From the NCBI RefSeq assembly GCF_020923495.1, contig NZ_CP064048.1:1-64000 (forward strand): a DNA stretch of 64,000 nucleotides, in the 5' to 3' direction. Of this stretch, positions 57,226 to 61,664 are shown one piece after another; position 1 is the first letter of the stretch; each line of letters begins with the position of its first letter. The stretch is from Brevibacillus sedimenti (GTDB lineage Bacteria > Bacillota > Bacilli > Brevibacillales > Brevibacillaceae). Both the position numbers and the translations under genes were made by a program. The notes below the pieces were generated by a model. The model saw only the letters and a program-made list of their open reading frames with translations, was not told the DNA's origin and ran no database searches.

Positions 57226-57855
57226 TCAGCTGTCCTGCTTTGGCTGATACATCGGCCGCGGCCGTTCAAACAATTCGCCCAGCGTGGCGTACCAGTGGCC
57301 GGCCAGGCGGCTGACAGGGGAGAAGGTGTCGATGTCGATCTTGCCGTCTCGGTAAAGGGAATCGTCGATGTGGACGTGCACCACCTCGCCGATGATCAGG
57401 TCCGACGCAGCCGGCTCGCCCAGCGTCATGAAACGGTGCAGCCGGCACTCAAAATGGACGCGCGACTCGCCCAGACGCGGCGGGCGGACGGCGACGGACG
57501 GCAGTTGGGTCAGCCCCAGCTCTTCCACCTCGCTCACTTCCGGCGGGTAATCGGCGGAGGTCTGATTGACCGCATCCACGTTGAACACGTCCACCATGTT
57601 GACGACAAATTCCTTCGTCTCTGCGATGTTGCGGGCCGTGTCCTTCATCACACTGCCCGGCTTGCGTATGACCGCGACGGAAACCAACATCGGTTCAATG
57701 CTGGCCACATTGAAGTAACTGAACGGCGCGGCGTTGACCACACCGTCTGCGCTGAGGGACGTGACCCAGGCGATCGGCCTCGGCACGACCCCGCCAATCA
57801 AGAGTTTGTATTTGTCCTGGCGCCCGATGGCACTGATGTCGATTTCCATGCGCAT
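57226..57855 (-). CDS. Flavin reductase-like FMN-binding protein
   Basis: ATG 57853-57855 gives 209 residues, MRMEIDISAIGRQDKYKLLI. Split-barrel FMN motif PRPIAWVTSLSADGVVNAAP with FSYFNVASIEPMLVSVAVIR and DTARNIAETKEFVVNMV. It reduces flavin with NAD(P)H, often for a monooxygenase. Located right after hmgA in the tyrosine-catabolic operon, it may support a hydroxylase or act on a quinone intermediate. It is soluble. Confidence 0.8.
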   Translation of the reverse strand: MRMEIDISAIGRQDKYKLLIGGVVPRPIAWVTSLSADGVVNAAPFSYFNVASIEPMLVSVAVIRKPGSVMKDTARNIAETKEFVVNMVDVFNVDAVNQTSADYPPEVSEVEELGLTQLPSVAVRPPRLGESRVHFECRLHRFMTLGEPAASDLIIGEVVHVHIDDSLYRDGKIDIDTFSPVSRLAGHWYATLGELFERPRPMYQPKQDS

Positions 57856-57867
57856 CCCCTTTCCTGT

Positions 57868-59028
57868 TTACGTTTGGGGCGGGAGCCAGCTGGCCATGTA
57901 GTCCGGGTCCTCGATGCCAAGCGCCTGGCGCGTCACCATGAGCGGCTTGAACGTGTCCAGCATGACCGCCAGTTCCCTGGTTTCCGTTTTGCCGATGCTC
58001 TCTTCGATCTTGCCCGGATGGGGACCGTGCGGAATGCCCATCGGATGGAGGGTGAGGGAGCCTTCGAAGATTCCCTTGCGGCTCATGAATTGGCCGTCCA
58101 CGTAATAGAGCACCTCGTCGCTCTCCACGTTGCTGTGGTAGTACGGCGCCGGAATCGCCTGCGGGTGGTAGTCGTACAGCCGCGGCACAAAGGAGCAGAC
58201 GACGAAGTTCTCTCCGGCAAACGTCTGGTGCACCGGCGGCGGCTGGTGAATGCGTCCCGTGATCGGTTCAAAGTCGTGAATGCTGAGGGCGTACGGGTAG
58301 AGATAGCCGTCCCAGCCGACCACGTCAAAGGGATGAAAGTCAAACAGATAACTGTACAGGACGGACTGCCGCTTGACGCGCACCTCGAATTCCCCGGCTT
58401 CCACGTGCGTCTGCAGCCGCTCCGGGACGCGGATGTCCCGCTCACAATACGGCGAGTGCTCGAGCAGCTGGCCGTGCTCGTTGCGGTAGCGCTTGGGCGG
58501 AACGATGTCGCTTTGCGATTCGATCACCAGAAACCTGCTGGGAGCGGACGGCACGATCCGGTACGTGGTGCCGATCGGAATCACCAGATAATCGCCCTGC
58601 CGATAAGAGATCGTGCCGAAGATAGTCTCCAGCTCCCCTTCCCCCTGGTGGACAAACAGCAGTTCGTCCCCGTCCGCGTTGCGGTAAAAATACGTCATCG
58701 GCTCGGTCGGAGCGCAGACGCCCAGCACCACGTCACTGTTGCCCAAGAGGTACTGCCGGCCTGAAATCGGATCGCCCCCGGCCTTCAGGTCAAAGGTTTT
58801 GAAATGCTGGTGCCGCAGATCCGCCTGCTCCACGTACTCCGGCTTCATCTCGCCGCAACGGCGCGTCGCGCGCACCTGCGTCGGCGGATGATGGTGGTAC
58901 AGGATCGACTGAATGCCGGAGAAGCCTTTCGTGCCCATCACTTGCTCGCGGTACAGCTCTCCGTTCGGTTTGTAAAAAGTGGTGTGCCGCTTTTTCGGCA
59001 CCTCCCCCATGCGATGGTAAAAGGGCAT
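57868..59028 (-). CDS. hmgA: Homogentisate 1,2-dioxygenase
   Basis: ATG 59026-59028 (GAAGGGAGGAAAAACGG). 386 residues, MPFYHRMGEVPKKRHTTFYK. Cupin fold with Fe(II) ligands in YHSNVESDEVLYYVDGQFMS (His, Glu) and HPMGIPHGPHPG (His). It opens the ring of homogentisate to maleylacetoacetate. It overlaps neither neighbour but has short gaps in the FAH-hmgA-flavin reductase order. The Gram-positive length is shorter than the 430-residue Gram-negative form, as expected. Confidence 0.87.
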   Translation of the reverse strand: MPFYHRMGEVPKKRHTTFYKPNGELYREQVMGTKGFSGIQSILYHHHPPTQVRATRRCGEMKPEYVEQADLRHQHFKTFDLKAGGDPISGRQYLLGNSDVVLGVCAPTEPMTYFYRNADGDELLFVHQGEGELETIFGTISYRQGDYLVIPIGTTYRIVPSAPSRFLVIESQSDIVPPKRYRNEHGQLLEHSPYCERDIRVPERLQTHVEAGEFEVRVKRQSVLYSYLFDFHPFDVVGWDGYLYPYALSIHDFEPITGRIHQPPPVHQTFAGENFVVCSFVPRLYDYHPQAIPAPYYHSNVESDEVLYYVDGQFMSRKGIFEGSLTLHPMGIPHGPHPGKIEESIGKTETRELAVMLDTFKPLMVTRQALGIEDPDYMASWLPPQT

Positions 59029-59062
59029 CCGTTTTTCCTCCCTTCATGTTTTTGCTGAACCT

Positions 59063-59992
59063 TTATTCGACCACGACGTTGCGCAGAACCCCCAGACGCT
59101 CTACTTCTAATTCCACTACGTCCCCCGGCTCAAGCCACGGGCAGCGTTCCGGCCCCAATTCGAGGATGCAGCCGGTCCCCACCGTGCCCGAGCCGATCAC
59201 ATCGCCGGGATAAAGCGGACAATCGGCAGATGCCCGGGCGATCATCTCGGCGAAGGTGTAATGGATGTCGGCCCAACGTCCGCGCGAGTACTCCACGCCG
59301 TTTACCCTCGCAATCATGGTGAGATCGTACCGGCTCCCGCTTTCGCCGGGAATGCGGACGTCTTCCAGTTCGTCAGGAGTGACCAGCCAGGGCCCCATCG
59401 ACGTGGCAAAATCCTTTCCTTTTGCCGGCCCGAGTCCCACCTTCATTTCTTCCCGCTGCACGTCGCGGGCGCTCCAGTCGTTCAGGATGCAGTAGCCGGC
59501 GATGTGCTCCTCCGCCCGCTCGACGGGAATGTCCACGCCCCCTTTGCCGATGACGCAGGCCACCTCCAGCTCGTAGTCCAGCCAGTGCGCCGCCTTGGGC
59601 CGCTTCACCGCCGCTTCCGGTCCGACAAAAGCGGCAGCGTTGGAAAAGTAAAAGACGGGAAAATGATACCACTCCGGAATCATGTCCAGCCCGCGGCGGC
59701 CGCGCGCCGTCCTGACGTGCTCCTCAAACGCGTAAAAGTCTCGAAAGCTGCGGGGACGGGGCACGGGAGGACCCAGAACAGCCTGCTCCGCCGGCACCGC
59801 GCAGGAAGCCGTATCCGCCTCAATCTCCAGACGCTGCAGCCGCTCCCTCCAGCGCTCCCACTCGTCCAGCAAAGCCAGCACGGAAGCGGGGGCCTCCGGA
59901 ATCGCCTGCGCGATGTCGATCACAAAACTGCTTCGAAACAAGCCTGCCCGCCAATCTCCCTGGCCGCCGCGACGGTACGACACCAATTTCAC
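59063..59992 (-). CDS. Fumarylacetoacetate hydrolase family protein
   Basis: I choose GTG 59990-59992, 6 bp from AGGAGGG; ATG 59998 touches the RBS. 309 residues, MKLVSYRRGGQGDWRAGLFR. Catalytic core: DYELEVACVIGKGGVDIP, AEEHIAGYCILNDWSARDVQ, GKDFATSMGPWLVTPDEL and GDVIGSGTVGTGCILE give the E-E-D metal site. It cleaves fumarylacetoacetate to fumarate and acetoacetate. First gene of the operon with hmgA; together they form the lower tyrosine/phenylalanine pathway. HPPD and maleylacetoacetate isomerase are not in this window. Confidence 0.85.
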   Translation of the reverse strand: MKLVSYRRGGQGDWRAGLFRSSFVIDIAQAIPEAPASVLALLDEWERWRERLQRLEIEADTASCAVPAEQAVLGPPVPRPRSFRDFYAFEEHVRTARGRRGLDMIPEWYHFPVFYFSNAAAFVGPEAAVKRPKAAHWLDYELEVACVIGKGGVDIPVERAEEHIAGYCILNDWSARDVQREEMKVGLGPAKGKDFATSMGPWLVTPDELEDVRIPGESGSRYDLTMIARVNGVEYSRGRWADIHYTFAEMIARASADCPLYPGDVIGSGTVGTGCILELGPERCPWLEPGDVVELEVERLGVLRNVVVE

Positions 59993-60091
59993 GCACATCC
60001 CTCCTCGCCATACGCATGTACGCATCCCTGATCTTTTGCATTTTTTGCGCAGCGCTCCTGCTTCGGCAGCCATGCCGGCTGGGAACGGCAC

Positions 60092-60200
60092 ACAAAAAGC
60101 CCAGCTTACCCCCAAACCGTCCCGACTGCATGCGAAAACAGAGCATTCCGCTGTCGTCAATGCAAGTCAAGACGGGCATCAGGCGCAAGCTGGGCTCTGT
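60092..60200 (-). promoter_or_regulatory. Structured leader / terminator-like long hairpin upstream of the homogentisate operon
   Basis: On the minus strand AGCCCAGCTT (60187-60196) pairs perfectly with AAGCTGGGCT (60098-60107), followed by TTTTTGTG. Inside, CCGTC-GACT-GCAT pairs with ATGC-GTC-GACGG. The unit ends 100 bp before the FAH start. It looks like an attenuator, unknown riboswitch or terminated small RNA. I found no T-box or glycine, SAM or lysine riboswitch motif. Confidence 0.5.
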
Positions 60201-60291
60201 CCGCTACCGAAGAAAACCTTGCGGGCGTTCCCCCGCAGACAGCCAGCCGTCGACACATGCTGCCGCTCTTCTCTTGTCTGTCTCTATCCTC

Positions 60292-60321
60292 ATCATAACG
60301 GAAACGCTTTCCTATTGCCAG
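60292..60321 (-). promoter_or_regulatory. Operon promoter with cre-like palindrome in the spacer
   Basis: On the minus strand CTGGCA, 18 bp, TATGAT (60292-60297). The spacer holds GGAAAGCGTTTCC (60300-60312), palindromic and a 12/14 match to the CcpA cre core (mismatches only at the ends). It suggests catabolite repression. Confidence 0.45.
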
Positions 60322-60408
60322 AGGAAATTGACGAAATGTTGTCACTTATCTGCCGACGCGCACGCTCCCCGCCGATGTGTACGTCAGGGAGCCGTACGTC
60401 TGAATTGA

Positions 60409-61314
60409 TTAGTCCCGGTGTCCGAAAACGCGCTCCGCCAGTTCCTGCATGTCTGCCGGTATCGGTTCGCTCCACTCCATCGCCTGCCCGCTGCGCGGAT
60501 GGACAAACGACAATCTGGTCGCGTGAAGTGCCTGACGGCCGATGAGGGCCCGGCTGCCGCCGTACAGGTCGTCGCCTGCCAGCGGATGACCGAGATGGTT
60601 CATGTGGACGCGGATTTGATGCGTGCGGCCCGTTTCCAGCTTCAGTTCCAGCCAGCTCATCCCGCCGCCTGTCGCCAGCACCCGGTAATGGGTGACTGCC
60701 GGCTGGCCGTCCGGCCGCACCTCGCGCACGATGATCGAATCGTCGCGCAGGCCAATCGGGGCATCGATCGTTCCTTCCTCTTCGGCCACGATCCCTTCGA
60801 CGATCGCATGGTACCAGCGGTGCAGCGTCCGCTCTTTCTGCATGCGGCTGAACTGCTCGTGGGCCCATTGGTTTTTGGCGACGATCAGCAGGCCGGACGT
60901 GTCCTTGTCCAGCCGGTTGACGGGGCGAAACTTGCGCCGCTCCCCCCGCTCCCGCCAGTAGGCGACCACGCCATTGGCCAGCGTTCCGCCCGTGTGTCCG
61001 CCAGTGGGATGAACGACGAGTCCCGCAGGCTTGGCGATAACCAGGATGTCCTCGTCTTCGTGACGGATGGCCAGTTCCATTGGCTCCGGCTGCACCGTTT
61101 CTTCCTCTTCGGCGGGCACCAGGATGGCCACGTCATCCCCCGGCCGCAGCCGCTCCGTGACGAAAACAGGCGTTCCGTTGCGGGTGATCGCTCCCTGGTA
61201 TTTGGCCCGGACCAGAAGCCGTCGGGACACCCCGAACCGTTTTTGCAGCGCATCGCGAATCGTCATATCCGCTTCCCGCTCCGTAGCCGTAAACCGTATC
61301 AGTTCTTCCAACAT
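60409..61314 (-). CDS. RluA/RluD-family pseudouridine synthase
   Basis: ATG 61312-61314 follows AAAGGAGAG. 301 residues, MLEELIRFTATEREADMTIR. An S4-like RNA-binding domain (1-65), then the synthase with IRHEDEDILVIAKPAGLVVH, catalytic Asp in NRLDKDTSGLLIVAK, and GRTHQIRVHMNHLGHPLAGD. It converts uridines in 23S rRNA (RluD-like sites) or tRNA. Stand-alone on the minus strand; upstream is the divergent promoter region. Confidence 0.87.
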   Translation of the reverse strand: MLEELIRFTATEREADMTIRDALQKRFGVSRRLLVRAKYQGAITRNGTPVFVTERLRPGDDVAILVPAEEEETVQPEPMELAIRHEDEDILVIAKPAGLVVHPTGGHTGGTLANGVVAYWRERGERRKFRPVNRLDKDTSGLLIVAKNQWAHEQFSRMQKERTLHRWYHAIVEGIVAEEEGTIDAPIGLRDDSIIVREVRPDGQPAVTHYRVLATGGGMSWLELKLETGRTHQIRVHMNHLGHPLAGDDLYGGSRALIGRQALHATRLSFVHPRSGQAMEWSEPIPADMQELAERVFGHRD

Positions 61315-61664
61315 GTCGTCTCTCCTTTGTCGGAAACCCTTCCTGGTCAGTATAGCACAAACGGAGGGACGGCACTGTTCAGCCGCCATCCTGGAGCCTG
61401 GAACCTGGAGACTGGAGCCCGCGCCAATTTCCCGCGGAAGAGTTGCAGATACAAATGCAGATTTTAATGTCAACCTATGTGAGAGGGGCGTACGGCTGTT
61501 TGGATGATCGAAGCCGTACGCTGACCATCACACGGAAAAACGATGATCCCCTTCTGGAGTCTTAGGCGAAAACAGTCCCGGGATGGACGAAATGCTTCTT
61601 CACACAAATTATAATGTCGACCAAAAGTATTACATCATCGAAATGAAAGGTGGAATTTCTGCGG
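61315..61664. other. Intergenic gap with a hairpin and short tandem repeat
   Basis: No gene is visible. 61394-61421 is a short tandem array of 7-bp units (GAGCCTG, GAACCTG, GAGACTG, GAGCCCG). GCGTACGGCT (61488-61497) and AGCCGTACGC (61512-61521) form a perfect 10-bp hairpin without a T-run. A TATAAT near 61610 probably serves the membrane gene at 61665. Confidence 0.5.

Follow-up and report, generated by a model that had tools for sequence, protein, structure and literature searches.

The leader RNA of an operon encoding fumarylacetoacetase-type (FAH-type) and HgmA-like proteins in Brevibacillus sedimenti is very probably a transcription attenuator, in which a long terminator hairpin and an upstream antiterminator rod compete for the same strand. 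The window analysed, that is, the whole stretch of 64,000 nucleotides at positions 1 to 64,000 of contig NZ_CP064048.1, carries this element on its minus strand (Table 1). We favour, with a probability of roughly 0.6, an attenuator of the ON type whose rod would be held together by a protein of the DUF3870 family, perhaps with a metabolite. The full element runs from about 60249 to 60094, beyond the interval 60092-60200 marked in a first-pass annotation of this DNA; the hairpin recognised there is half of the element, and the other half is a 63-nt rod upstream of it.

Table 1. Positions of the leader element, its predicted promoter and the genes that follow, in order of transcription.
Feature	Position	Strand	Basis
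Predicted sigma-70-type promoter, -35 CTGGCA, 18 nt, -10 TATGAT	60292..60321	minus	consensus scan, 9/12 positions
cre-like palindrome GGAAAGCGTTTCC within promoter	60300..60312	minus	sequence
Antiterminator domain, rod P1-P2-P3, 63 nt	60187..60249	minus	covariance-model match G000:C1:60187-60249; pair counts
P1 5' strand GCUGG, partner 60193..60189	60243..60247	minus	pair statistics
P2 5' strand UGUCUGC, partner GCGGACA 60204..60198	60235..60241	minus	pair statistics
P3 5' strand GGGGAACGCC	60224..60233	minus	9/10 paired with GGUUUUCUUC 60218..60209
P3 loop CGCAA	60223..60219	minus	
Shared strand CCAGC, P1 3' strand and part of terminator 5' arm	60189..60193	minus	triple covariation, 61 RNAs
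Long terminator hairpin, 99 nt	60098..60196	minus	folding and genus alignment A1
Terminator 5' arm AGCCCAGCTT	60196..60187	minus	sequence; 10 bp
Terminator 3' arm AAGCTGGGCT	60107..60098	minus	sequence; pairs with AGCCCAGCTT
Terminator U-tract UUUUU (five T)	60094..60098	minus	sequence
FAA_hydrolase-family protein (P0001), first gene of operon	59063..59998	minus	Pfam PF01557, 198.7 bits
Distant homogentisate 1,2-dioxygenase homologue, HgmA_N/HgmA_C	57868..59028	minus	Pfam, 45 + 29 bits
Flavin reductase-like protein	57226..57855	minus	Pfam PF01613

The first-pass annotation had described a terminator-like structure of about 100 nt with 10-bp outer arms and a T5 run on the operon strand, and both the arms and the run are present in the minus-strand sequence. 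Folded as RNA, the minus strand from 60080 to 60210 gave a minimum free energy (MFE) of -74.4 kcal/mol, compared with -45.6 (sd 3.6) for 200 shuffled sequences, none of which did as well (z -7.97), and the hairpin by itself has an MFE of -61.9 kcal/mol. Since the plus strand of the hairpin region gave z -3.68 in the folding test, the operon strand is the more structured of the two. The hairpin is conserved across genus alignment A1 and leaves about 95 nt between its end and the first gene, which starts at ATG 59998 or GTG 59992, in agreement with the distance of 100 bp first estimated. A repeat or mobile element was considered and rejected, as the genome has one full-length copy of the hairpin and the next 17 matches have E values of at least 0.3.

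The genus alignment contains a strongly conserved stretch 5' of the terminator, GCUGGyUGUCUGCGGGG...UAGCAGAC....CCCAGC, which forms the rod by pairing GCUGG with CCAGC (P1, or AGCUGG/CCAGCU as extended), UGUCUGC with GCAGACA (P2), and GGGGAAAAUC with GAUUUUUUUC (P3). The last rod strand, CCCAGC, doubles as the 5' arm of the terminator, and because one strand serves both, antiterminator and terminator are mutually exclusive. For the same reason the proposal that the hairpin might be a separate small RNA finds no support. In a MAFFT alignment of 35 sequences (30 distinct), the rod positions were paired in 94.4% of cells, a value inflated by the structure having been read from the same 35 sequences, as against 44-53% when the 3' strand was slid by 1-3 columns. 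Changes on both sides of a pair, a count free of this inflation, occurred in 43 cells compared with 14.5 in shuffles, and 0/500 shuffles reached 43. When 45 sequences were fitted to the covariance model structure, 94.7% of rod cells were paired and the both-side changes numbered 142 versus 44.6 shuffled. A local GCGGG/CCCGC hairpin preceding the terminator, also noted in the first pass, is indeed present at 60237..60220, but its outer pairs are broken in L018, L027 and L032-L034 and it excludes P2, so that P2 and P3, which the relatives keep instead, were taken as the real pairing and the local hairpin was rejected as the functional fold.

The shared strand leaves a trace in the pattern of substitutions. 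Across 61 RNAs whose terminator was recognised by a complementarity score (L032, L088 and L150, without a terminator by this rule, and L086:7916 fall outside this set), the bases at the P1 end position, in the order P1, shared strand, terminator, were G-C-G in 37, A-U-A in 11, A-U-G in six and G-U-A in three, with U-U-A (two), A-C-A (one) and U-U-G (one) as rarer triples. Standard pairing is thus retained in P1 in 57/61 and in the terminator in 60/61. The P1 end pair swaps from G-C to A-U in step with the terminator pair, and this change from G-C-G to A-U-A is the expected mark of one strand with two partners. The element therefore has a strand common to both folds and covariation for each of them, as befits a mutually exclusive attenuator.

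At equilibrium the terminator state of the window leader is favoured, at -84.3 kcal/mol versus -68.9 kcal/mol with P1 enforced. With a gap of about 15 kcal/mol the default is probably termination, and a helper would be needed for antitermination. In the mechanism that we propose, nascent RNA from the promoter would fold into the rod P1-P2-P3, and CCAGC could sit in P1 or in the terminator, in only one structure at a time. Unaided, the stronger 99-nt terminator would displace P1 and transcription would end before the FAH/hmgA-like genes. If the rod were held together, P1 would persist, the terminator arm would stay occupied and the operon would be transcribed. The holder of the rod would probably be a DUF3870 protein acting in response to an aromatic catabolite. 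From the predicted promoter, transcription is expected to start near 60285 (minus strand), and the -10 and its surroundings align across 26 genus rows. The AAGCG-TT-CG core of the palindrome GGAAAGCGTTTCC is also aligned in the genus rows; its likeness to the cre consensus makes it a possible CcpA site, and the promoter is probably CcpA-controlled.

The 441-nt upstream region was used in a BLASTN search of 60 genomes (own genome included), in which 25/25 other genomes of the genus matched and 0/34 others did. This is the independent count for the genus, as the 26/26 obtained there with the covariance models R1 and R2 holds by construction, these being training sequences. The structure is thus conserved upstream of orthologous operons, and with the alternative antiterminator pairing and its covariation this bears out the attenuator that the first-pass annotation had suggested. 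R1, the first covariance model, was built from the genus and found other genera of the same family, whose sequences revised the P3 pairing and supplied covariation; the later model R2 matched 36/39 family genomes (E up to 0.1) and 40/398 class genomes (E up to 0.01), of which five do not belong to the family. In a phylum sample, R3 found the RNA in 3/398 genomes, with two matches outside the class, in G731 and G442. The RNA is uncommon outside the window's family. L095 (24 bits, an apparent coding stretch, no terminator) was removed as a false positive before A5 and R3, and weak matches in L002-L008 and L060-L062 were left out of further analysis.

That the family was unknown, as first stated, agrees with our searches: Rfam 15 gave two chance matches elsewhere in window positions 59000-61500 and none in the leader (E up to 5), and at 16 + 8 further loci only chance miRNA and SAM_alpha matches near or outside the elements. 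The same search recovered the c-di-AMP and azaaromatic (yjdF) riboswitches in L122, the latter serving as positive control; these lie at L122:1581-1707 and L122:6832-6951, respectively, near a DUF3870 locus of Aneurinibacillus thermoaerophilus.

Within the genus, a FAH-type gene follows the RNA in 22/26 loci. The other four are L011, L012, L013 and L027; by eye, a HgmA-like start follows the RNA in L011-L013. Elsewhere the RNA lies before ABC-transporter substrate-binding proteins of the branched-chain-amino-acid type (L086, L087, L090, L092-L094), luciferase-like monooxygenase with FMN reductase (L085, L089-L091), an aromatic acid/H+ symporter (aromatic-acid MFS transporter, TIGR00895; L085), HgmA-like genes (L055, L085), flavin reductase (L088), quinone oxidoreductase (L083), and NAD-binding dehydrogenases and a symporter (L194, L195; names from sequence only). 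The window operon had been called a homogentisate operon, and it does contain FAH-family and HgmA-related genes, but its HgmA homologue is short (386 aa) and scores 70 bits against TIGR01015, far below the cut-off of 510, so that homogentisate is no more than a candidate substrate. The FAH gene of the L089 cluster scores 645 bits as a true fumarylacetoacetase (cut-off 375), which connects these clusters with the homogentisate route. A protein of about 327 aa with no Pfam or NCBIfam match is encoded among the HgmA-like, monooxygenase and fumarylacetoacetase genes, at L085:8389-9372 (plus strand) and also in L084, L089, L091 and L196; it could be a glutathione-independent maleylacetoacetate isomerase.

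At most loci outside the genus, the gene 5' of the RNA has about 115 codons (a protein of about 110 aa) and belongs to Pfam DUF3870 (PF12986), three of the proteins scoring 72, 120 and 100 bits against the curated cut-off of 22. DUF3870 occurs above cut-off in 108/398 class genomes and in 0/14 control genomes, and Bacillus subtilis seems to have none; it is present in 39/39 family genomes, with one copy in the window's genome (G000:C1:2076527), and in 39 of the 40 RNA-bearing class genomes. The fortieth, G248, has a C-terminal remnant of DUF3870, the last 21 residues or so, directly 5' of the RNA. Outside the family, 4/5 RNA-bearing genomes have DUF3870 versus 72/362 (hypergeometric P 0.006). 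The RNA search found 31 RNAs outside the window's genus (a count without L119, L121, L123, L134 and L150, which were found via DUF3870, and L009-L011 of the window's genus), and 22 of them begin 7-121 nt past the end of a same-strand DUF3870 frame, that of L088 being a C-terminal remnant (E 0.01). The nine that do not adjoin DUF3870 are in L051, L084, L085 (two), L086:7916, L092:5274, L093:3223, L196 and L197. Six of these (both in L085 and those in L086, L092, L093 and L197, the last with L083) share one gene cluster with an RNA-DUF3870 pair, and the L196 genome has DUF3870 on another contig. In G731 and G442, outside the class, a DUF3870 gene ends directly 5' of the RNA, for which the chance is about 4e-5 each.

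Approached from the DUF3870 side, the named genomes yielded 38 loci. In 14 of them DUF3870 shares a Brevibacillus operon with a GAF/GGDEF protein, and the DUF3870 gene is not followed by such an RNA. At the other 24 the RNA was found by covariance model in 16, by a structure (switch) detector in seven more (background 9/760 on shuffles) and by eye only in L148. The genera among these DUF3870 loci include Brevibacillus, Aneurinibacillus, Siminovitchia, Alteribacter, Cytobacillus, Niallia and Sporosarcina. In the window's genus, DUF3870 is found not beside the leader but in the operon with the GAF/GGDEF protein (L096 and the 14 named loci). At L096:5028-6594 (G000:C1, about 2076527), the window genome's sole DUF3870 gene is followed by that of a GAF/GGDEF-like protein, as read from sequence, which may possibly provide a signalling input.

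Judging by gene linkage, DUF3870 is probably the switch factor. It is the best candidate for two reasons: its linkage to the RNA is seen in several genera, in different gene contexts and in two clades whose RNAs differ, and the order of regulator gene, attenuator and catabolic genes is that of hutP. Against such a role count the separate location of DUF3870 in the window's genus, its predicted fold and the chance-level signal in two other clades (both below), its presence in 72/362 class genomes outside the family compared with just five that carry this RNA class, and G248, which keeps the RNA with a mere DUF3870 remnant.

The main rival is a metabolite riboswitch, which the first-pass annotation had raised as well and which we consider rather unlikely. 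The rod would then bind an aromatic catabolite (homogentisate, hydroxyphenylacetate or similar), stabilising P1 and preventing termination, and DUF3870 would be merely a frequent neighbour, such as an enzyme, sensor or accessory protein. The rod has the size of a riboswitch and includes unpaired positions that are conserved (the A before P2b and AA in the P3 loop), which is compatible with this, but few unpaired bases are conserved and the helices carry most of the conservation. ON logic would suit catabolic genes, and several contexts converge on one route (TIGR00895 transporter, luciferase-like monooxygenase, HgmA-like protein, true fumarylacetoacetase); against this, the element also precedes the unrelated genes of L194 and L195. 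The window's genus has the RNA without an adjoining DUF3870, as a riboswitch would allow, but the tight linkage elsewhere would then be coincidence, a clade of DUF3870 paralogues comes with a separate version of the RNA, and no Rfam riboswitch matches. The linkage thus favours a switch operated by protein.

Mutually exclusive folds would fit any factor acting in trans, so that another RNA-binding protein, a tRNA or a ribosome on a leader peptide might work the attenuator, but this appears quite improbable. The element matches no T-box or other known leader or riboswitch family in Rfam, and no conserved frame with a ribosome-binding site was found in the leaders, an SD-like motif preceding a candidate start in 3/26; on this ground the leader-peptide reading was rejected. 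A plain unregulated terminator of the upstream gene (pseudouridine synthase in the window, or DUF3870) would explain a long hairpin with a U-tract but is highly improbable, as the hairpin is separated from the upstream gene by a strong promoter, the hairpin is within the transcript of the next operon, and the rod changes coordinated with the shared arm would be needless for it.

Returning to the DUF3870 switch, the protein itself gives few clues. Three DUF3870 proteins searched against Pfam at E up to 10 matched only DUF3870 and two weak unrelated families, with no other family at E below 0.2. An AlphaFold2 model of the L153 protein (pLDDT 89.9, alpha/beta) resembles IscU and the accessory domains of lipoate ligase and CO dehydrogenase in the PDB with Z 8-9 (VIA-align, Foldseek), a likeness that may reflect a common arrangement only. 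No known RNA-binding fold leads the fold matches, and HutP is absent among the matches listed, which proves nothing. In PMC4387736 the accession PF12986 denotes the C-terminal half of a protein from Bacteroides (PDB 3kog), which phmmer and profile searches of the PDB with these DUF3870 proteins did not return.

DUF3870 proteins of the GDA clade are accompanied by a second RNA of the same layout, GCUGC-UUUAUUUA-(hairpin)-UAAAUAAA-AC-CCAGC plus terminator, in which the last strand, CCAGC, is again the 5' arm of the terminator. It was recognised by motif at 13/15 loci and by eye at the other two, and a strict detector found it at 8/15 loci versus 2/300 shuffles. These loci (L097-L099, L102, L154-L163, L166) belong to several families of the class, and the RNAs lie 5' of genes that, by their sequence, are of the peptide-transport type or D-aminopeptidase-like. 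The start of the element falls within the last codons of the gene in L161-L163 and L166, where P2 is changed on both sides to UUUGUCUA/UAGACAAA. The switch detector was at chance level in the GHA clade (1/27 loci versus 11/540 shuffles) and the TGY clade (1/8 versus 6/160), so DUF3870 proteins in general may do something else. By eye, GGUUUU/AAAACC seems to compete with the terminator in TGY loci L100, L104 and L114. L175 and L179 of the GHA clade have long leaders 3' of DUF3870 that end in GAGCCRGUUAUCACCCC...AACUGGCUUUUU terminators, again by eye, and also contain AGGCGAAAGUYUGG...CCAGACUAAGGAGCC; they are possibly another leader RNA.

We lean, by a little over even odds, towards a broader reading in which DUF3870 would be a new family of RNA-binding antiterminators with at least two clades, GFA and GDA, each with cognate RNAs, forming a portable Bacillota cassette. 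The cognate RNA, usually directly behind the gene, would turn on uptake and catabolic operons; the GFA clade would read the rod of the type found in the window, and the GDA clade the GCUGC-UUUAUUUA rod before peptide-transport genes.

Several known systems are comparable. The hut operon has the order hutP, terminator, hutH. HutP of Bacillus subtilis resembles the proposed system in being a small regulator protein that prevents termination in a catabolic operon with probable catabolite repression, and in having its RNA flanked by the regulator gene on one side and catabolic genes on the other. Its role in antitermination and its RNA, with two clusters of NAG triplets, are described in PMC7430163. 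By Pfam search, the three DUF3870 proteins are not in the HutP family. The RAT hairpin of the BglG, SacY and LicT antiterminators is short, and the rod here is longer and different. BglG, SacY and LicT likewise use a protein-stabilised antiterminator that overlaps the 5' arm of the terminator, according to PMC4347634 and PMC7430163, whereas the DUF3870 proteins have no CAT or PRD domain (Pfam search). ANTAR proteins also provide protein-dependent antitermination of catabolic operons, and their targets are two tandem stem-loops (PMC8934654 and PMC4347634); here there is one rod whose 3' strand is common to the terminator, and DUF3870 has no ANTAR domain. In ON-type transcriptional riboswitches, such as azaaromatic/yjdF, a ligand domain P1 similarly competes with a terminator, but the present element has no Rfam match and is tightly linked to a protein gene.

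A limited literature search found no description of the element or of a function for these DUF3870 proteins. Antitermination that depends on a protein is already known as a mode of regulation, with few protein families known to act in it; this RNA family and DUF3870 would both be additions. As a portable unit with several orthogonal versions, such a protein-RNA pair would also make a useful tool. If the proposal is true, it would give the protein family DUF3870 a testable function and add an RNA family missing from Rfam, and it may explain the induction of homogentisate-type catabolism in Brevibacillus.
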